A DNA stretch of 59,336 nucleotides from Parafrankia elaeagni (GTDB lineage: Bacteria; Actinomycetota; Actinomycetes; Frankiales; Frankiaceae): the NCBI RefSeq assembly GCF_000374165.1, contig NZ_KB893711.1, positions 1 through 59,336 on the forward strand, in the 5' to 3' direction. A model generated the notes under the pieces. It worked only from the letters and a program-made list of their open reading frames with translations. It made no database searches and was not told where the DNA came from. The position numbers were made by a program, and so were the translations under genes. Below are positions 9,892 through 52,146 of the stretch, in pieces; position 1 is the first letter of the stretch; each line of letters opens with the position of its first letter.

Positions 9892-11639
<1,748 letters not shown>

Positions 11640-41167: not shown

Positions 41168-42799
41168 TTACGCGACGTCGTGGTGGCCCGGCTCACCGGC
41201 GCCCGCACGATCCTCGGCGAGCTGCACGAGCGTGCGCACGATGGCCCCGGTCCCGCCCTTGGGGGTGTAGCCGTAGGGCTCGCCGCCGTTCCAGGAGGGG
41301 CCGGCGATGTCGACGTGCGCCCACGGGATCTCCTCGGGCACGAAGGCGGCGAGGAAGTGGGCGGCCAGCAGCATGCCGGCGTCCCGGTTGCCGCCGGGGG
41401 CGACGTTCGCCAGGTCGGCCACGGCCGAGTCCAGGCTCTTGCGCAGCTCCTGGGGCATCGGCATCGGCCAGACGGTCTCCCCGGCCCGGCCGGCGGCGGC
41501 TGCGACGGTGTCCGGCGCGTCGCCGCGGCCCATCACCCCGGCGGTGCGGGTGCCCAGCGCCACGATCTGTGCGCCGGTGAGGGTGGCGACGTCGACGATC
41601 AGTGCCGGCTCCTCCTCGGCGGCGCTGGCCAGCGCGTCCCCGAGCACCAGCCGGCCCTCGGCGTCGGTGTTGAGCACCTCGACCCGCTTGCCGCCGCGCA
41701 GAGTGATCACGTCGGACGGGCGGATGGCGTCGCCGGAGGGCATGTTCTCCGCGCACGGCATCCAGCCGGTCAGGTTCAGCGGGAGGCCCAGCCGGGCCAC
41801 GGCCACGACCGCGGCGAGCACCGAGGCGGCGCCGGCCATGTCGCTCTTCATCCACTCCATGGACACCGGCGGCTTGAGCGACAGGCCGCCGGAGTCGAAG
41901 GTGATGCCCTTGCCCACCAGTGCCAGATCGGTGTCGGGGCCGCCGCCCTCCGAGGCCGACCCGGCGGTACCCGCAGCCTCGGCGCCCGCGTACCGCAGGC
42001 GGATGAGCCGCGGCGGGTTGGCCGACCCCTGGCCGACGCCGAGCAGGCCGCCGTAGCCGCCCTCGGCGAGGGCGGTCTCGTCCAGCACCGTCACCTCGAC
42101 GCCGGCGGCGGCGGCCCGCTCCGTCGCGATCTCGGCGAGCCGGGCCGGGGAGAGATGGCTCGGCGGGGTGTTCACCAGGTCCCGGACGAGGGCGACGGCC
42201 TCGGCCACGATGCCCGCCCGCTCCAGCGCGGCCTCCGCCGGCGCCACGCCGGCCGGATCGTCGACCACCAGGACGATCTCCCGGACGGGCGCCGGCCCGT
42301 TCGCGGCGGACCGCAGGCTGTCGAAGGCGTAGGCCCCGAGCAGCGAGCCCTCGGCCGCGGCCCGCAGTGACGCAGGCGTCAGCCCGCCGGGGGCGAGCGC
42401 GAGTGTGGTGGCGACCCGGCGGGTGCCGGCCAGCGTGCGCACCGCCGCGCCGGCGGCCCGCCGCAACGTCTCGTGCGCGGGGCTGCCCTGGCTGGCCTGG
42501 GCGCCCTCGCTGCCGCCGGCGGCCCAGCTCGCCGTGAACGTGCTGTGGTCCCCGACGCCGACCGCGAGCACGGTGGGTGCCTTCGTGGCGCCGAGCGTCG
42601 CGAAGCGCACGGTGTTCCCGATGGCGCCGGTCGCCCCGAGGTCGGCGAGGATCCGGGCCAGCCGGCCGCCGAGCGCGGCGTCGATCGCGCCGGCCCCGCC
42701 GAGGGGGACCGGGCCGTCGTCACCGCTGGCCATGCCGATCACGATCGTGTCGACGTCAAGATCGGTGAGGATGGTGGCGGAGGCAGCGGTGACGGTCAT
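41168..42799 (-). CDS. pepA: leucyl aminopeptidase (M17)
   Basis: Dinuclear metal aminopeptidase of 543 aa. The C-terminal catalytic domain shows [34 protein letters not shown] and the family signature [10 protein letters not shown], with metal-ligand Asp and Glu residues; the N-terminal domain ([14 protein letters not shown]...) is more divergent. PepA can also bind DNA in some bacteria. The start ATG lies 6 nt after TACGCT. Position next to gcvT matches mycobacteria (Rv2213). Confidence 0.94.
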
Positions 42800-42805
42800 G
42801 GCCTC

Positions 42806-42811
42806 AGCGTA
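42806..42811 (-). promoter_or_regulatory. -10 element (TACGCT) of pepA
   Basis: On the minus strand TACGCT, 6 nt, then ATG. Identical in sequence and spacing to the gcvT and lipB elements. Confidence 0.55.
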
Positions 42812-42828
42812 TTGGCCGCCCGCGCGTG

Positions 42829-42986
42829 TGCCTCGGTGTGGCATCTCGGTGTGGCATCGCCGTGCCGGTGTGGCATCGCCGTGCCAGCTCGGCAGCGCCG
42901 TGCCGGCTCGGCAGCGCCGCGGGCAGGCCGGTGGCCAGTCGGGCAGCGCTCCCGGCGGCGCAGCTCACTCCCGGCGGCGCAGCTCG
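42829..42986. repeat. mosaic of short tandem repeats between pepA and gcvT
   Basis: The divergent intergenic region contains CGGTGTGGCATC in several copies, GGCATCGCCGTGCC twice, CTCGGCAGCGCCG twice, and CTCCCGGCGGCGCAGCTC twice in tandem (about 42949-42985). It carries no gene that I can see and separates two leaderless promoters. Confidence 0.75.
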
Positions 42987-43035
42987 ACCATCCGGGCGAT
43001 CCCCGGCCGACCCGCCGGAGCGCTCCGCGGGCGGT

Positions 43036-43041
43036 TACGCT
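43036..43041 (+). promoter_or_regulatory. -10 element (TACGCT) of gcvT
   Basis: TACGCT, 6 nt, then the gcvT ATG; predicts a leaderless transcript. A leaderless start leaves no room for a glycine riboswitch. Confidence 0.55.
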
Positions 43042-43047
43042 GCCGGC

Positions 43048-44145
43048 ATGACAGAGCTGCGCCGGTCCCCGCTGCACGAGCGGCATGTCGAGCTGGGCGC
43101 CAAACTGGCCGCCTTCGGCGGGTGGCAGATGCCGATCGAGTACGCCGGGCGCGGGGTCCTGGCCGAGCACGCGGCCGTGCGTTCCGCCGTCGGTGTCTTC
43201 GACGTGAGCCACCTGGGCAAGGCCCGGGTGGCCGGGCCCGGTGCCGTCGACTTCGTCAACGCCTGCCTGACCAACGACCTGCGCCGGATCGGTCCCGGCC
43301 AGGCGCAGTACACGCTGTGCTGCGACGAGACCGGCGGCGTCGTCGACGACCTGATCGCGTACTACTACGCCGACGACGACGTGTTCCTCGTCCCGAACGC
43401 GGCGAACTCGGGCGCGGTCGTCGGGCGGCTGGCCGCCGCCGCGCCGGCAGAGGTGGCGGTGACGGACCTGCACACCGGCTTCGCCGTCCTGGCCGTGCAG
43501 GGGCCCGCCTCGGTCGAGGTGCTGGGCGCGCTCGGCCTGCCCGCCGACGGGGCCTACATGACCTTCGCCGACGCGGAGTGGAAGGGGCGGCCGGTCGTGG
43601 TCTGCCGGTCGGGCTACACCGGCGAGACCGGGTTCGAGCTGCTGCCCCGCTGGGAGGACGCGGTCCCGCTCTGGGACGAGGTGCTGGCGGTCGCGGCCCG
43701 GCTCGGTGGCCTTCCCTGTGGTCTCGGTGCCCGTGACACCCTGCGGACCGAGATGGGCTACCCGCTGCACGGCCAGGACCTCTCGTCCACCATCAGCCCG
43801 GTGCAGGCCCGCTCCGGCTGGGCTGTCGGGTGGGACAAGCCGGCCTTCTGGGGCCGCGACGCGCTGCTCGCGGAGCGGGCCGCCGGGCCGGCACGGTCGC
43901 TGTGGGGCCTGCGGTCGAACGACCGCGGCATCCCCCGCCCGCACATGCGGGTGAACGGCGCGGACGGTGCCGAGCTCGGCGAGGTCACCAGCGGCACCTT
44001 CTCGCCGACCCTGCGTCAGGGCATCGGCCTCGCCCTGCTCGACCGGTCGGTCACCGCCGGCGACACCGTCACGGTGGACGTCCGCGGCCGCAGCTCGGCG
44101 ATGACGGTCGTCCGCCCGCCGTTCGTCTCCGCCTCCCCGCGCTGA
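43048..44145 (+). CDS. gcvT: glycine cleavage system aminomethyltransferase (T protein)
   Basis: Transfers the methylene group from the lipoyl arm of H protein to tetrahydrofolate. Motifs: [58 protein letters not shown], the DVSHLG folate-site segment, and [20 protein letters not shown] with FWGRDALL. 365 aa, normal. The H and P proteins are not nearby; the lone gcvT next to pepA is also the mycobacterial arrangement. Confidence 0.93.
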
Positions 44146-44160
44146 GACACCAGGACCAGC

Positions 44161-44202
44161 CGAGGCACCAGGACTAGTCGAGGCACCAGGACTAGTCGAG
44201 GC
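44161..44202. repeat. 18-bp tandem repeat across the cobS 3' end
   Basis: CGAGGCACCAGGACTAGT occurs twice in tandem, followed by CGAGGC, and a degenerate copy precedes it inside the gcvT 3' flank. The cobS stop codon lies within the second copy. Confidence 0.85.
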
Positions 44203-45019
44203 CGACGAGCCGCAGGGCCGGGGTCGGAATGGTCATCGCCATCGTGACCAGACTGACCATGGCGGTGATCTCGACGGTCGCGCCGAGGGTGTCACCGGTG
44301 ACGCCGCCGAACCGGCGGACCAGCCGGCGGCGGAGCAGGAAGGCGGCGCCCAGCGCGACGGCCACGGCGACCACGGCGCGGACCGCACGGCCGTTGTCTC
44401 CGCCGTGGAAGTCGAACCGCCCGGCCAGCGCCGCGACGGCGAACACCCCGGCGGTGGCCAGGACCGCGTCCCGGCGCCGCACGGTGCCGGCGACCAGCGC
44501 TCCAAGTCCGTCCGGCCGGGCCGCGGGCACTCCCTCGACGCACGACCAGGTCGCCGCGAGCCGGCTCGCCATCGCCGCGACCAGGATGGAGACCGTGCCG
44601 CGGTGGGCGGCGATCGCGGTGCTCAGCGCCGAGACCTGGACGAGCACCACGAACAGCACCGTGACCGCGCCGAAGGCCCCGATGGTCGACTCGCGCATGA
44701 CGGCCAGCACCCGCTCGCGCCCGCCACGGACGCCGACCGCGTCCGCCACGTCAGCCAGTCCGTCCAGGTGCAGGCCGCGGGTGAGCCCGGCGAGCAGCGC
44801 CACACCGACGACGGCCGGCAGCAGTGTCTGCGGGCTGCCGGTCGGCGGCTTGGTCATGATCCGCATCGCCACCACCACCAGGGCGCAGACGAACCCGAGA
44901 GCGAACCCCACGGCGGGGGCGGCGACCATGGCCCGGCCAGCCACGGTGCGGTCCAGGCGCTCGGGGCCGCGGATCGGCACGACCGTGAGCAGGGTGACGG
45001 CTGCGCGTGCCCCGATCAC
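44192..45019 (-). CDS. cobS: adenosylcobinamide-GDP ribazoletransferase (cobalamin synthase)
   Basis: Integral membrane enzyme joining adenosylcobinamide-GDP and alpha-ribazole. The start of the protein AAVTLLTVVPIRGPERL, the GLTRGLHLDGLADVADAVG segment with conserved Asp residues, several hydrophobic helices, and LGGVTGDTLGATVEIT near the C-terminus identify it. I use GTG 45019, which gives 275 aa with the usual N-terminus; a GTG at 45073 would overlap cobT by 47 bp. It lies directly after cobT on the same strand. Confidence 0.92.
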   Translation of the reverse strand: MIGARAAVTLLTVVPIRGPERLDRTVAGRAMVAAPAVGFALGFVCALVVVAMRIMTKPPTGSPQTLLPAVVGVALLAGLTRGLHLDGLADVADAVGVRGGRERVLAVMRESTIGAFGAVTVLFVVLVQVSALSTAIAAHRGTVSILVAAMASRLAATWSCVEGVPAARPDGLGALVAGTVRRRDAVLATAGVFAVAALAGRFDFHGGDNGRAVRAVVAVAVALGAAFLLRRRLVRRFGGVTGDTLGATVEITAMVSLVTMAMTIPTPALRLVGLD

Positions 45020-45026
45020 GCGGCCG

Positions 45027-46268
45027 TCATGGGGTACCCGGGCCGGCGCCGTCGAAGTCCTCCGCGCCGTCACTGCCCGCGCCGTCTTGGGCCGCTCCGG
45101 TGGGGAGGACGTCCTTGCTGCTGACGCCGGCCTGGTCGAAGGTGGCCATCTCGGCGAGGGTGCGCTGCGCCGCCAGCAGCAGCGGCACGGCGAGCAGCGC
45201 GCCGGTGCCCTCCCCGAGGCGCAGGCCGGCGTCGACGAGCGGCTCCAGCCCGAGGTGGTCGAGCACGAAACGCTGCGACGGCTCCGGTGAGCGGGTGCCC
45301 GCGACCCACCACTCCTTCGCCCCGGGCGCGATCCGTTCGGCGGCGAGTGCCGCCGCGCAGACGATCACGCCGTCCAGGACCACCGGGGTGCGCCGGACGC
45401 TGGCCTGCACGAGCAGCCCGGCGAGCGCGGCGAGATCCGCCCCGCCGGCGACCCGCAGGACGGAGAGCGCGTTGCCGGAGTAGGGCCGGGAGCGGCGCAT
45501 CGCGTCGCGGATGGCCGCCACCTTGACCATCCAGCGCTGGTCGTCGATGCCGGTGCCGCGCCCGACGACGTCCACCGGCTCCCGGTCCAGCAGTGTGCCG
45601 ACGACCGCCGCCGCGGGAGTGGTGTTCCCGATGCCCATCTCGCCGGGGACGAGCAGGTCCGCCCCGGCGTCGATCTCCTCGTCCGCGATCAGGCGGCCGA
45701 CGGCGAACGCCGCGTCGACCTCGGCCGGGGTCAGCGCGTCGACCTGGTCGATCCGGCCGCTCGCGCGCCGGACCCGGTACCGCTCGGGCGGGGCCGTGCC
45801 GTCCACCCCGCCCGGGGAGGTCGGCAGCGGGGTGTCGACGGCGACGTCCACCACCCGCACCGACGCCCCGACCCCGCGGGCGAGGACGTTGACGGCCGCG
45901 CCGCCGGCGGCGAAGTTCGCCACCATCTGCGCGGTGACCTCGGCCGGGAAGGCGGACACGCCGGCGCTGGCGATGCCGTGGTCACCGGCGATGACGACGA
46001 CCCGGATGCGGGCCGGCGGTCGCGGCGGGCACAGGCCCTGGGCGCCGGCGATCCAGACCGACAGCTCCTCCAGCCGGCCGAGGGCACCTGGCGGTTTGGT
46101 GAGGATGCCCTGGCGCCGGCGCGCGGCGTCCATCGCCGCCCGGTCGAGGTCCGGCACGGCGGGAACGGCGTCCGACGCGGGGGCCGGCGCCGGAGCGGGG
46201 GCGGCGGGTGCGAGGGGCGCCGTGGATGCCGCGGGCGGCTCGGGCGGCTCGGGCGAGGTGGTGTCCAC
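45027..46268 (-). CDS. cobT: nicotinate-nucleotide-dimethylbenzimidazole phosphoribosyltransferase
   Basis: Makes alpha-ribazole phosphate from the lower base and nicotinate mononucleotide. Motifs: [66 protein letters not shown], and [16 protein letters not shown] with the family's GIGNTT. The C-terminal active-site Glu is in [16 protein letters not shown]. 413 aa including an Ala/Pro N-terminal extension of about 45 residues and an acidic tail. GTG start with AAGGA upstream. No cobalamin riboswitch is visible ahead of it. Confidence 0.94.
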
Positions 46269-46439
46269 AGGTCCTTATTACCTGATCGTCACCTGGTGGC
46301 CGATCGCCGGGCGAGCCGGGTGGAGAGTGATCCGGTAATTTGCCGGTGTGTCTGTACCGGAGCGGCCGACATCCTTCAGGTCCGCCGGACGGCGGCGGAC
46401 ACGTGACCGGGCGCTGCGCGCTGGGGGAGGGGGGACCCG

Positions 46440-49400
46440 TTGGACCCTGTTCGTGGCCGATCCGTCTTCCTGAGCCACACCACCGAGCTGCGGCGTTTCC
46501 CCCGGGACCGCTCGTTCGTCGCGGCCGCCGAGCGCGCGATCGCGCTTGCCGGCGACCGGGCCGTCGACATGGAGTACTTCGGTGCCCGGGCGCAGAGCCC
46601 CGCCGACTTCTGCGTGCGCCAGGTCAAGGAATGCGACGTCTACATCGGCCTCATCGGGTTCCGCTACGGATCACCCGTCCGGGAGATGCCGCACCTTTCC
46701 TACACCGAGCTGGAGTTTCAGGCGGCGACCGAGGCGGGCCTGCCGCGGCTGGTGTTTCTGCTGGACGACGACGCCGAGGTGCCGTTCCGCGAGTTCCTCG
46801 ACCGTGAGTACGGCGACCGTCAGGAGGCGTTCCGCCGGCGGCTGCGCGACGCCGGGGTGATCGTCGCCGACTTCCGTGACGGGCTGCTGGAGACGGCTGT
46901 GCTCGGTGCCCTGGTCAATCTGCGCGAACGCGGCGACCGGCCGGTGCGCCCGGAGCTGCCGGAGGCATCACCTGCGCCGGTGCGGCCGCCGTCCATGGTG
47001 CCCCCCGTCCGGGGGCTGATCGAGCGGCCCGCGCTCGCCGAGGAGGTCCTGGGCAGGCTGCTGGCCGCGGGCAGCCCGGCCGAAGCCCCGGCCGGCGGCG
47101 GGCCGGCACCGGGCGGGCCGGCACCAGGCGGGCCGGGCGACGGCGAGATCCCCCGCCCGGTGGTGCTCGCCGGAGCCGGCGGGTTCGGGAAGACGACGCT
47201 GGCGGCCGCGGTGTGCGCGAGCCCGCGCGTGGCGTCCCGGTTCGACGGCGGCGTGCTGTGGGTGACGCTCGGCGAGTCGCTCGGCGGCGCGCACCTGGCA
47301 GACCGGATCAACGACCTGAGCGAGGCGCTGTCCGGGGTCAGACCGACCCTGTCCGACCCCGAGCAGGCCGGCTTCCGGCTCGGCGAGCTGCTCGGCCGGG
47401 AGCGCCGCCTGCTGGTCCTCGACGACGTGTGGCGGCGGGCCCAGCTCCGCCCGTTCCTCGCCGGCGGCCCCGGGTGCGTCCGGCTGATCACCACCCGGAT
47501 GCGTGGGCTGGTCCCCGACGGCGACATCCTCCAGGTGCCGGCGATGGCCGACAGCGAAGCCGCCAGCCTGCTCTCCCGCGACCTGCCAGCCCGGCTGCCC
47601 GAGCCGCTGCTGCGCCGGCTGCTGGTGGTCACCGGCCGCTGGCCGGTGCTGCTCTCCCTGGTCAACCGGGCGGTGGCACGGCAGGCCCGGGACGGCATGC
47701 CGGTGCGGCGGGCGGCCGAGCGGGTGCTGCGTCGCCTCGAACGGCGCGGCCCCACGGCGCTGGACGTCAGCCGGGTCGAGGAACGCGCGCTCGCTGTCGA
47801 GGCCACGCTGTCCGCGAGCCTGGGTCTGCTCACCGGCGACGACCTGGAGCGCTACCTGGAGCTCGCGGTGTTCGGCGAGGACGTGGAGATCCCACGGGAC
47901 GTTCTGGAGACCTACTGGGCGGCCACCGGCGATCTCGACCGCGACGAGGTCGACGACCTGTGTCAGGAGCTCTCCGACCTGTCTCTCGTGGTTGCCTACC
48001 GCCGCGACCCGCCGTCCCTGGTGCTGCAGGACGTGCTGCGGACCTACCTGCGCTCCCGGGTCGGCCCGGCGCGGCTGCGCGACCTCGACGGCGTCCTGTG
48101 TGACGCGCTCGCTCGCATGATCGACCGTGCGACCGGAGGTGTGGGCGCCGCCGGGCGGCGTCCCGTGCGGTGGTGGACGGCGCCGGAGCAGTCCGGCTAC
48201 CTGTGGGGGCACCTCGCGGGCCACCTGGCCGGAGCCGGCCGTGTCGACGAGCTGGTCGCACTGCTCGGGGACCTGCGCTGGACGGTCGGCAAGCTCGCCG
48301 TGGGCCGGCTCGGCCCGGTCGCCGTCGAGGCGGACCTCGACGTGGCCGCCGCGCTGCGGCCGGACGACCCGGTGCTGGCCGCGCTGAGCCGCGCGCTCGG
48401 CCAGAACGCGCACCTGCTCGGGCCCACCGAGCCGCCGGAGGCCCTCGGCGCGGTCCTGCTCAGCAGGCTGGACGGCATTCGCACCCTCGAACCGGCCCGG
48501 GCCGCGCTCGCCGCCCGGCTCCAGGGCCCGCGCCTGGTCAACCGGTGGGCACTGCCCGACCAGCCGCACCCCGCGCTGCGGCGAGTCCTGGCCGGGCACA
48601 GCCAGCAGGTGCACGCGCTGGCGGTGGCACCCGACGGGAGGTGGCTCGCCTCCGCCGGGATGGACGGGACGGTCCGCACCTGGACGGCGGGCGCGGGGGC
48701 GGCGCGGTCGGTGTTCACCGGGCACGTCGGCAGTGTGCTGGGCACTGCCGTGGCGCCGGACAGCAGCTGGCTCGTCTCGGCGGGTGCGGACGGCACCCTG
48801 CGGGTCTGGGATGTGCCAGACGAGAAGGATGCCGGAGAGTTCCTCGGTGGCGGTGGCGGTGGCGGTGGCGGTGCCGGCGCAGGTGCGGGCGGCCCTGGCG
48901 CGGCCGGGGGGATCGGTGGTGCCGAGCCGGCGGCGCGTCTCGTGCTGCGCGGGCACCGCGGCCCGGTGAACGGGTGTGCGGTGAGCGCCGACGGCGCGTC
49001 GGTGTACTCGGTCGGTGCCGACGGCACCCTGCGGGTCTGGGACGCCGTCACCGGCCGGGTCCGCCTGGTCATGCCGGTGGCGGGCGGCGCCCTGCGCTGC
49101 TGCGTGGCCGGCCCCGACGGTCCTGACGGCCCGACCCTGGCCGTGGCCGGGGACGACGGGTTCATCTGGTTGCTCGACCCGCGTACCGACGGTCCGTCGA
49201 CCGGTGAGCGGCGCATGCTCGAGCGGAGCCCGGACAGGCCGGCCACCGACGAGCGGCGGACGGTGGTGCGGGGTGGCGTGGCCGGAGCCGCGGCGGGACG
49301 CCCCGGTGGGCGGGACGGCCCGGCGGGCGGCGGCGCGCGGCGTGGCCCGCTCGCCGGCCACGCCGGCCCGGTGCTCGCGCTTGCCCTCGGCCCGGGTGGC

Positions 49401-50603
49401 AGCTGGCTGGTCTCGGCCGGCGAGGACGGCACGGTGCGGCGCTGGGACGCCCGCACCGGCCGGCAGATCGGGGTGATCGGCGACGGCGGCCGCCCGGTCC
49501 GCTCCTGCGCGCTGGCTCCGGACGGTGCGTTCCTCGTCGCGCCGGACGGGGGTGTGATCGCCGTGCGGGACCCGCTCAGCGGCGCCCAGCGGGCCGAGCT
49601 GACCGGAGCGATCGGTACCCGGGCCTGTGTGGTCGCTCCCGACGGCTCCTGGATCGCCTCCGGCGGCCGCTACGGCACGATCCGGGTCTGGAGCACCGGC
49701 AGCGACCTGCCCCGCCTGTCGAGCGGGGGGCGCAACGAGGGCTCCCGTGGCTGCGCCGTCGTCGCAGCCACGGCCGGGTCGGCCGGGTCGGCCGGGTACG
49801 TCGTGTCGTCCAGTGACGACGGGACGGTCACCGCGTGGGACCTGGGGACAGGCGAGCCCGGCGCGGCGATGGTGGGACTGCCCGGCCCTGCCCGCGGCTG
49901 TCGGGCCGCCCCCGACGGCAGCTGGGTCGTCGTGCCGGCCCAGCCGGACGCACTGCGGCTGTGGGATCCGGCCACCGGCAACGTGCGGGCGGTGCTCACC
50001 GCGGACGTCGCCGTGCTCGGCTTCACCGTGGCCGCGGACGGCACCTGGGTCGCGGGTGGCTGCGAGGACGGCTCGGTGCGGCTCTGGGACACCGAGTCCG
50101 GCGAGTGGATGGCCACCTTCACCGGCCACACCGCGCGGGTCCTCGCCGCCGTGGCCGGGCCGGACGGCAGCTGGCTCGCCTCCGCCGGAGACGACGCGAC
50201 CGTGCGGATCTGGGATGTCGTGACCCTGGAGCAGCGCAGGCTGCTGGGTGGGCACCGCGGGCCGGTGCTCGGCCTCGCGACCGACCCGGCCGGCCGGGTG
50301 CTGGCCTCGGCCGGGCTGGACCACACCGTGCGGATCTGGGACGTCCCGACCGGCGAGCCGCTGGCCGTCCTGGCGGGGCACGTGCACACGGTGCGGGAGG
50401 TGGCCTTCTCCCCGGACGGCGCCTGGCTCGCCACCGCGGGCGGTGACGGGTCGGTGCGTATCTGGGACCCGCGGACCTGGGCCTGCCGCACCATGATCCG
50501 CTTCGAGGGTGCCGCGCGCGGCTGCGCCTGGTCACCGGACGGGTCCAGTCTCGCGGTCGCAGGCTCGTCCGGGCTGTACCTGTACTCGCTCCTGCCCGGC
50601 TGA
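46440..50603 (+). CDS. DUF4062 / NB-ARC / WD40 STAND protein (NLR-like)
   Basis: A 1387-residue multidomain protein. Residues about 8-110 are a DUF4062 domain ([58 protein letters not shown]). Residues about 190-560 form an NB-ARC NTPase: P-loop GAGGFGKTT near 245, Walker B LLVLDDVW near 327, sensor LITTRMR, and a winged-helix part. A helical linker reaches about 710, then fourteen WD40-like repeats end the protein, probably two seven-bladed propellers, with a poly-Gly spacer in repeat 2-3. The TTG start has GGAGGGG upstream. Such proteins act as oligomerising switches in bacterial signalling or antiphage defence, and DUF4062/WD40 combinations occur in animal NWD1-like proteins (family knowledge). 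No partner effector gene is adjacent. It is flanked on both sides by cob genes on the opposite strand. Confidence 0.9.
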
Positions 50604-50670: not shown

Positions 50671-52146
50671 TCAGCGCGGGCGCAGCCGGACGGGGACGCC
50701 CGCCACGGCCAGCCACACCTCGTCGGACTCGGCCGCGAGCCGCGCGTTGACCTCGCCGAGGCGGTCGACGAACCGGCGCCCCAGCGGGGTCGGCGCGACG
50801 GGACCCGAGCCGGCCTCGTCGGTCACCGCGACCACCCGCCGGCGGGTGGCGCGCCAGGCGTCGACCAGGCCGGCCACGGACTGCGCGAAGTCGGGCTCCT
50901 CCAGACGCGCCGCGACCCACAGCGAGATGCTGTCGATGAGCAGCGGCGGCCCGGGGGAGCGCAGCAGCGGCTCGAGATCGAGGGTCTCGACGGTGGCCCA
51001 CCGCCCGGGGCGGCGGTCCCGGTGCGTCTGGATCCGGGCGGCCCAGTCGGCGTCGGAGCCGTCCGCGGGGCGGCCGGTGGCCACGTAGACGACGTCCGGC
51101 TCGGCGAGCAGCTGGTGCTCGGCATGGGCGGACTTGCCCGACCGGGTGCCACCGGTGATCAGGATGCGGCGCGCCGTCTCCGGGGACGGCGCCGCCGCCG
51201 GCGCCGAAAGCGGAGCCGCGCGCATCGGGGCCGGCATCGGGGCCGAGGCACTGCCGGCCGGGATGTCGAGGACCGTGCCGTCCGGCGGGGCCTGCGCGCC
51301 CAGCTCGGCCAGCCGCCGGGCCAGTTCGTCCCCGGGCGGGTTGCGGTGGCTCAGGTGGACCGCGAGCACCCGGGTGCCGGGCCCGACTGCGCCGAGGCCG
51401 CGCAGCTGGGCGACGAGCCCGGTGAACGACGGCAGGTCCAGGTGCTCGCCGAAGCCGGGGCGGTCGCCGTTGTTCTCCTCGAGCAGCACGACGTCGAACG
51501 CCCGGCCGGTCAGCGCGGCCAGTGTCTCGGGCGGCAGCGGCGCGGCCGTGTCGCAGCCGTACAGCAGGCGTGCCCCGTCGGGCGCCGTCACGTCGTAGAG
51601 CACGGCCGGCCCGATGTCGGCACCGCCGTGCCGGGCCGCGACCGGACGCACCAGGTAGCGCGAACCGCCGTCCGATCCGGCCTCACCGGCCTCACCGGGT
51701 TCGTCGGCCTCACCGGGTTCGCCGAGTTCGAGCGGGCCGCCCGCGACGGCGGGCAGCAGCCGCAGCGGCGAGCCGTCGGTACCGGGCTCGCGGCCCTCCC
51801 AGCGGCGGAGGAAGGTTCGACAGACGTCCAGCGCGGCGGGCGGCGCCACGATGTCCAGCGGCTCCTGCGCGACGCTGGACCACGACCGCCACATCAGGGC
51901 GTCGGGACCGAGATGGTCGGGGTGAGCGTGCCCGATCAGGACGTGGCGCAGCCCGGCCAGGCTCACCCCGAACCGGGCCGCGGCCCGCGGGACGTCCGGA
52001 CCGAAGTCGAGCAGCAGCCGCCCGTCGACGAGGACGGCGGTCTGACCGCGGGGCCCGTGCACGCGGGCCCACCCACAGGACGCGCACTCGCACCACGGGT
52101 TCGGCCATCCGTCGGCCGAACCCGTGCCCAGCAGGGTGAGCCGCAT
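50671..52146 (-). CDS. cobU: fusion of PhnP-like MBL-fold hydrolase and adenosylcobinamide kinase/guanylyltransferase
   Basis: Residues 1-300 form a metallo-beta-lactamase fold: the N-terminal LLGTGSADGWP, a CxCx2C structural zinc site (Cys 19, 21, 24, as in PhnP), and the HxHxDH motif in HVLIGHAHPDHLG. Residues about 325-491 are CobU: P-loop RILITGGTRSGKSAHAE, VYVATGRP, IQTHRDRRPGRWATVE, and LIDSISLWVAARL. CobU phosphorylates and then guanylylates adenosylcobinamide. 491 aa. The region between (about 300-325) is Ala/Pro-rich. It follows a 59-residue membrane protein gene by 19 bp on the same strand. The MBL half is not a standard partner of CobU in E. coli or Salmonella. Confidence 0.88.
   Translation of the reverse strand: MRLTLLGTGSADGWPNPWCECASCGWARVHGPRGQTAVLVDGRLLLDFGPDVPRAAARFGVSLAGLRHVLIGHAHPDHLGPDALMWRSWSSVAQEPLDIVAPPAALDVCRTFLRRWEGREPGTDGSPLRLLPAVAGGPLELGEPGEADEPGEAGEAGSDGGSRYLVRPVAARHGGADIGPAVLYDVTAPDGARLLYGCDTAAPLPPETLAALTGRAFDVVLLEENNGDRPGFGEHLDLPSFTGLVAQLRGLGAVGPGTRVLAVHLSHRNPPGDELARRLAELGAQAPPDGTVLDIPAGSASAPMPAPMRAAPLSAPAAAPSPETARRILITGGTRSGKSAHAEHQLLAEPDVVYVATGRPADGSDADWAARIQTHRDRRPGRWATVETLDLEPLLRSPGPPLLIDSISLWVAARLEEPDFAQSVAGLVDAWRATRRRVVAVTDEAGSGPVAPTPLGRRFVDRLGEVNARLAAESDEVWLAVAGVPVRLRPR

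Follow-up and report, generated by a model that had tools for sequence, protein, structure and literature searches.

An old STAND protein inherited beside cobT in Frankia and its sister genera joins a candidate DUF4062 NADase to an APAF-1-type body

DUF4062 was reported as a TIR-like NAD+ hydrolase (NADase) in a bioRxiv preprint of May 2026, whose available sections describe the DUF4062 of KpSwz (catalytic E97) as acting in abortive infection and that of human TEP1 (E1008) as active (PMC13174449). According to the available sections of this and a second paper, STAND and DUF4062 proteins serve antiphage defense (PMC13174449; PMC10907252). Herein, we analyzed a stretch of 59,336 nucleotides from Parafrankia elaeagni (contig NZ_KB893711.1; the window), in which the plus-strand gene at 46440..50603 encodes a single protein of 1387 amino acids composed of a DUF4062 (TIR-like) domain, an NB-ARC/APAF-1-type NTPase, helical domains, and 14 WD40 blades. 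Our results support its domain layout and the conservation of its catalytic and nucleotide-binding residues, and they indicate that the gene was inherited vertically, is under purifying selection, and has decayed repeatedly. The protein is probably a vertically inherited, single-protein, ligand-triggered switch that depletes NAD+ and has an APAF-1-type body. Its parts are given below.

46440..50603, plus strand: STAND protein gene, 1387 amino acids, TTG start; coding supported by the ratio of nonsynonymous to synonymous substitution rates (dN/dS)
46458..46934, plus strand: DUF4062/TIR-like domain, residues 7-165 (Pfam PF13271, KpSwz profile match, secondary structure of the model)
46713..46715, plus strand: E92, candidate catalytic Glu, the second Glu of TELEF (predicted helix 88-99, conservation, faces Ala in KpSwz)
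46935..47147, plus strand: variable linker, residues 166-236 (many alignment gaps, low predicted local distance difference test score, pLDDT)
47148..48119, plus strand: NB-ARC, HD1, and winged-helix domain, residues 237-560 (Pfam, phmmer, fold match)
47172..47198, plus strand: Walker A (P-loop), residues 245-253 (sequence, orthologue alignment)
47409..47432, plus strand: Walker B LLVLDDVW, residues 324-331 (sequence, orthologue alignment)
47487..47498, plus strand: ITTR motif, residues 350-353 (TTR invariant in the alignment)
48120..48530, plus strand: helical domain, APAF1_C/HD2-like, residues 561-697 (PF17908 at 19.3 bits, below its cut-off of 22.8; APAF-1 superposition)
48531..48542, plus strand: strand 698-701, assigned to the second propeller as the strand it otherwise lacks for closure (inferred from the strand count)
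48567..49703, plus strand: first seven-bladed WD40 propeller, about residues 710-1088 (two low-confidence loops, 796-827 and 917-965)
49704..50594, plus strand: second seven-bladed WD40 propeller, about residues 1089-1385 (strand count, 2ymu structure alignment)

The NTPase scored 56 bits against the Pfam NB-ARC model and 15 bits against NACHT (cut-off 26.7). APAF-1 was the best match in both sequence (phmmer, E=7.2e-14) and fold, and the model of the N-terminal half superposed with it up to residue 693. With Walker A and B, a winged helix, a helical domain, and WD40 propellers, the protein is an APAF-1-type STAND NTPase; two APAF-1-specific Pfam models stayed under their cut-offs, including APAF-1-like_WHD (22.8 bits, cut-off 27), while the NB-ARC, phmmer, and fold matches were strong. 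The linker was 28-70% identical to 21 orthologues over its aligned part only, with many gaps, and low pLDDT was predicted at 167-181 and 214-234. The alignment with the 2ymu propeller structure spanned 560 residues, with a root-mean-square deviation (rmsd) of 10.8. Pfam, phmmer, and the fold match confirmed the initial annotation of this gene as a STAND/NLR-like protein with the order DUF4062-NTPase-WD40, and the strand count in the model bore out its 14 WD40 units as two seven-bladed propellers. The domain order that it compared with NWD1-like proteins holds; the NTPase is of the NB-ARC/APAF-1 type and not of the NACHT type found in TEP1/NWD1.

The N-terminal domain scored 58.4 bits against Pfam DUF4062 on a fragment (cut-off 24.7), and residues 1-180 showed no other Pfam match and no N-terminal CARD. 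Modeled within the N-terminal half and not alone, this region is predicted to form five alternating strand-helix units. A search of the PDB set with a DUF4062 profile built from A2 (11 sequences) found KpSwz (10wc_A) at E=6.7e-7 and human TEP1 only at E=1.5. KpSwz was not among the best 50 Foldseek rows, which the NTPase filled, and this gives no evidence either way. In the model, E92 lies in helix 88-99, where TIR NADases carry their catalytic Glu. It is kept in 23 of the 23 copies read at the cob site, the window included (21/21 rows of A1, plus L005 and L017); E90, two residues before it, is Gln in L057. The Glu pattern at this position was also matched in 12 of 13 paralogues of the same layout elsewhere in the family, with L078 unmatched. 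In the profile alignment, E92 of the window faces an Ala of the deposited KpSwz chain. Since the KpSwz cryo-EM construct is described as E97A in the sections available (PMC13174449), the simplest explanation for this Ala is mutation of the catalytic residue, and E92 would correspond to KpSwz E97. Because DUF4062 is reported as a NADase and the position of the catalytic Glu is conserved here, the effector probably lies within the protein itself. The reported activity (PMC13174449, as far as its text is available) and the kept E92 agree with the earlier proposal that the N-terminal domain is the likely effector, and a candidate effector inside the protein agrees with the proposal that it probably acts alone.

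Other DUF4062 proteins were also seen in the family. The same genome carries a second DUF4062 at L067:6124-7578 (contig C50), in residues 322-410, the C-terminal part of a 484-amino-acid open reading frame (ORF) that has no other Pfam match, adjoins an SHMT-like gene, and keeps the TELEF motif. By Pfam, L081 is a DUF4062-AAA/NB-ARC-TPR STAND and L084 a DUF4062-NACHT-HEAT STAND of 2463 amino acids; judged by length and the P-loop motif, L082 resembles L081, and L083 resembles L084.

Scanning 84,980 species genomes with a search that reaches close relatives only gave 17 loci, picked by sequence and not by site. Sixteen were in Frankia, Parafrankia, or Pseudofrankia, and one, in Actinosynnema, matched the WD40 part only. 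Either cobT or cobS adjoins the gene in 15/15 of the family loci whose 5' side is present, and the sixteenth, L011, has the metallo-beta-lactamase-fold/CobU fusion (MBL-cobU) on its 3' side. Among plasmids, 15 records were matched by residues 1-560, one of which (Paraburkholderia, 28% identity) spans DUF4062 and the NTPase; this record is almost unannotated.

The cob-site copies formed one clade against the 13 paralogues (24/24, support 0.96), none of which showed cobT, cobS, or MBL-cobU in its surrounding stretch. Tree distances of the STAND protein followed those of GcvT (r=0.955, 19 taxa, 11/16 splits shared), MBL-CobU (r=0.942, 14 taxa, 9/11 splits), and PepA (r=0.915, 17 taxa, 11/14 splits), with zero, one, and zero well-supported splits contradicted, respectively. 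Agreement with CobT was lower (0.736, 23 taxa, 12/20 splits shared, one well-supported split contradicted). The single clade, the fixed site, and the distances that follow GcvT, MBL-CobU, and PepA are most simply explained if the gene was inherited together with its neighborhood. These results indicate that the STAND gene has long belonged to the chromosome next to cobT in Frankia and its sister genera and has been passed on vertically.

The gene was then tallied by open frame and site in 36 family genomes, the same 36 that make up the order, some of whose assemblies are incomplete. A cob-site copy, whether whole, cut, split, decayed, or relic, was present in 28/36. The frame was open in 22 genomes, cut only by contig ends in two (G028 and G032), split in one (G013), and decayed in two (G001 and G005), where the same N-terminal, NTPase, and helical-domain parts are gone. 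One further genome, G014, holds a weak relic between cobU and cobT (55 codons of WD40, 41 bits, 40% identity). No cob-site copy was seen in eight genomes (G007, G008, G012, G016, G019, G021, G022, and G031), the absence in G008, G012, G019, and G022 resting on search rows only. Some of these lineages may never have had the gene. Decay is documented at least twice, by G001/G005 and by G014; the latter looks like loss and not an empty site because its short cobU-cobT gap keeps the WD40 relic in the expected orientation. The initial annotation had taken the gene for an insertion that splits the cob genes, which does not stand given a copy at the same site in 28/36 genomes. It had also proposed comparing the cob interval across relatives and named presence at the same site in all of them, combined with the lack of a defense or signaling phenotype, as a point against its proposal; the 28/36 found come near to the first half of that condition.

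The decayed copies, L018:7305-9547 (EUN1f) and L050:3612-5828 (G005), have gaps at matching places that remove the NADase, the greater part of the NTPase, and a portion of the helical domain. G005 retains an open frame of 769 amino acids, and EUN1f shifts frame in the WD40 part. In G034/L015, counted among the 22, the helical region (about 10780-11070) aligns to the window at 30% and reads as if it carried a pair of compensating frameshifts.

Selection was estimated as dN/dS by the Nei-Gojobori method over 12 pairs. The DUF4062, NB-ARC, helical, and WD40 domains gave 0.017-0.187, 0.078-0.345, 0.11-0.58, and 0.18-0.48, respectively, and cobT gave 0.064-0.50 over the same pairs. The gene is under purifying selection. 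Of the four domains, DUF4062 gave the lowest value in 9/12 pairs, NB-ARC being marginally lower in window-L005, L003-L061, and window-L003; DUF4062 was below cobT in 11/12 pairs.

The neighbors of the gene and the element in its 5' intergenic region are as follows.

45027..46268, minus strand: cobT, divergent 5' neighbor (NCBIfam TIGR03160)
44192..45073, minus strand: cobS (Pfam CobS)
50671..52146, minus strand: MBL-cobU, convergent 3' neighbor (Pfam)
46332..46346, plus strand: 15-base element CCGGTAATTTGCCGG in the divergent intergenic region between cobT and the STAND gene (conserved in the genus)

The CobU encoded at 50671-52146 carries an N-terminal metallo-beta-lactamase-fold domain by fusion. 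Where searched for, cobT was found in 16/16 and MBL-cobU in 15/16 family genomes. Over 26 cob-site loci (the two decayed and the split copy included), the nearest searched 5' gene was opposite-strand cobT in 23 and same-strand cobS in three; the nearest searched 3' gene was MBL-cobU in 17 and another gene in five, with nothing in the stretch in four. These counts covered the window's own genes only, so others may intervene, most likely at large gaps (e.g., 3.3 kb in L009). The element CCGGTAATTTGCCGG was on site in 7/7 members of the genus, without mismatch in the window, L003, L004, L005, L018, and L050 and with one mismatch in L061, and has a single copy in this genome at ≤1 mismatch. Alignment of three Frankia intergenic regions did not show it there. 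This element is possibly a promoter or operator of either divergent gene, and it may belong to cobT because both genomes with a decayed STAND gene keep it. No cobalamin riboswitch or other Rfam RNA was found in the window at the gathering threshold. Neither end of the gene showed a sigma-70-like promoter or a terminator, a result that is uninformative at this guanine plus cytosine content. A minus-strand ORF at 42796-43944, antisense to the plus-strand GcvT gene (42826-44145), behaves as non-coding, with dN/dS >1 in 10/11 pairs (0.63 in L003-L061), and was dropped from the neighbor-gene comparisons.

By analogy with described systems, we infer NADase activity, oligomerization, cell death, and a trigger for this protein. 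At rest, as in APAF-1, ADP would be held by NB-ARC, and both WD40 propellers would be folded back onto it. Binding of a trigger by the propellers would cause nucleotide exchange, after which the NB-ARC domains would assemble into a wheel. The wheel would crowd the N-terminal DUF4062/TIR-like domains and switch on NAD+ hydrolysis via E92, much as NB-ARC rings bring TIR domains together in TIR-NLRs. Loss of NAD+ would end in cell death or growth arrest, to judge from KpSwz, TEP1, and TIR-NLRs. Frankia is counted among the multicellular bacteria, and the likeliest use would be phage defense of the filament by abortive infection. This is our first guess because DUF4062 and bacterial STANDs with reported roles act in this way in the text available (PMC13174449; PMC10907252). 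Related conflict systems were argued, in the part of the source available, to concentrate in multicellular bacteria (PMC7159879). The gene looks like an inherited suicide or defense switch, not a recent arrival.

Several observations weigh against this reading. Antiphage systems are not usually inherited vertically at a fixed site, and the fixed site of this gene speaks against abortive infection as its use. The d-a and b-c loops, which we took to be the top-face (ligand) loops of the propellers, were not more variable than the remaining loops (difference -0.094, permutation p 0.052, 27 versus 26 loops; L015 and L056 were left out of this measure), and the blades were colinear across the 20 rows of A3. 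Together these agree more with a conserved ligand than with a rapid arms race. They therefore favor function but weigh against the simplest picture of an immune receptor. The predicted N-terminal half superposed on APAF-1 with an rmsd of 8.7 Å, its domains lying in a different relative pose, and confidence in this model was moderate on average (pLDDT 75.5, predicted template modeling score 0.49). PADLOC-DB 2.0.0 gave only HEAT-ARM_XIII, over the WD40 part, and nothing over the NTPase or effector; seven neighboring ORFs of the window, some perhaps not genes and cobS and cobT not among them, gave no PADLOC match. Hypervariable WD40 sensors are known in fungal HET genes. Such a sensor is unsupported here, where blades are colinear, WD40 dN/dS is 0.18-0.48, and top-face loops are if anything less variable.

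Human NWD1, NWD2, and NPHP3, which have the same kind of N-terminal domain, are inactive on NAD+ in the preprint as available (PMC13174449). This counts against a NADase and favors a rival in which DUF4062 is a catalytically silent adaptor that only oligomerizes and recruits partners, as perhaps in these human proteins. Strict conservation of E92 makes such an adaptor unlikely, as does the lack of a conserved partner beside the gene except the cob genes, among the window's own genes looked for. The cob genes themselves suggest a housekeeping or developmental regulator that would sense a cobamide, pyridine-nucleotide, or developmental signal and trim NAD+ with no role in defense. The nearest searched 5' gene was cobT or cobS in 26/26 loci, including three with cobTS inverted and five without an adjoining MBL-cobU; purifying selection and the intergenic element conserved in the genus also point this way. 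CobT is a nicotinate-nucleotide phosphoribosyltransferase (NCBIfam TIGR03160) and its neighbor a candidate NAD+ hydrolase, so both genes of the divergent pair would act on pyridine nucleotides, and they may be functionally linked. However, neighborhoods can persist without such a link, and 11/36 genomes have either no copy or a decayed one at the cob site, at least six of them (G001, G005, G007, G014, G016, and G021) keeping cobT and cobU. The STAND gene is therefore not needed for cobalamin synthesis, and we hold a cob-linked regulator to be rather unlikely, if a serious contender.

A recently acquired antiphage gene inserted into the cob region would agree with the antiphage use of STAND and DUF4062 proteins in the text available (PMC13174449; PMC10907252). 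Against it stand the site shared by most of the family, the single clade, distances that track GcvT, MBL-CobU, and PepA, and the WD40 relic of G014, which looks like loss. We rejected this explanation as highly improbable given the fixed site, the single cob-site clade, and the tree agreement with neighbors. A bolder extension, which we regard as a long shot, would make the protein a domesticated apoptosome of bacteria. It would be a core programmed-cell-death switch that filamentous nitrogen-fixing actinobacteria inherit vertically, with an APAF-1 body that carries its own NAD+-destroying executioner, answers a conserved ligand, perhaps an internal one, and has a functional tie to the adjacent cobT. 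If true, it would be a bacterial counterpart, and possibly a forerunner, of APAF-1 and TEP1-like switches.

The ligand-triggered, NAD+-depleting switch remains the explanation that we favor. A bacterial protein that naturally wires a DUF4062 enzyme to a full APAF-1-type body, and that several genera retain at a single site, makes it possible to test apoptosome-like assembly as the driver of a bacterial NADase, the ligands of the propellers, and immune-type STANDs as core genes of multicellular bacteria. The family also offers natural loss and truncation alleles.

No title in the literature listings searched dealt with this gene. Among known systems, it shares with Swarozyc (KpSwz) the single-protein form and a DUF4062/TIR-like domain that retains the position of the catalytic Glu. 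KpSwz, in the sections available, has a short helix-turn-helix/winged AUX sensor that binds the phage portal (PMC13174449), whereas this protein has NB-ARC and 14 WD40 blades; by layout, it is not a Swarozyc. With human TEP1, NWD1, and NWD2, as far as the same text describes them (PMC13174449), it has in common the order DUF4062, STAND NTPase, helical domain, and WD40, but their NTPase is NACHT and here it is NB-ARC (56 versus 15 bits). Nor was a TROVE domain found in the fragments scanned (residues 1-180, 231-567, and 561-707). By its NTPase, the protein is outside the TEP1/NWD1 family, and its effector step should, by analogy, resemble those of both Swarozyc and TEP1/NWD1. APAF-1 of the animal apoptosome shares NB-ARC, the winged helix, the helical domain, and two WD40 propellers, which hold 15 blades there and 14 here. 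The position of the APAF-1 CARD is taken here by the TIR-like candidate NADase domain, and no caspase partner was seen. Plant TIR-NLRs such as RPP1 have a canonical TIR instead of DUF4062 and carry leucine-rich repeats instead of WD40. LypABC, a CARD-NLR-like system of Caulobacter, is likewise a bacterial APAF1-like NLR, built from several genes with CARD-like and TPR-like parts and no DUF4062 in the portion of the account available (PMC13236601). To judge from its sequence, the protein is a new combination of known kinds, in which a candidate DUF4062 NADase is joined to an APAF-1-type body.

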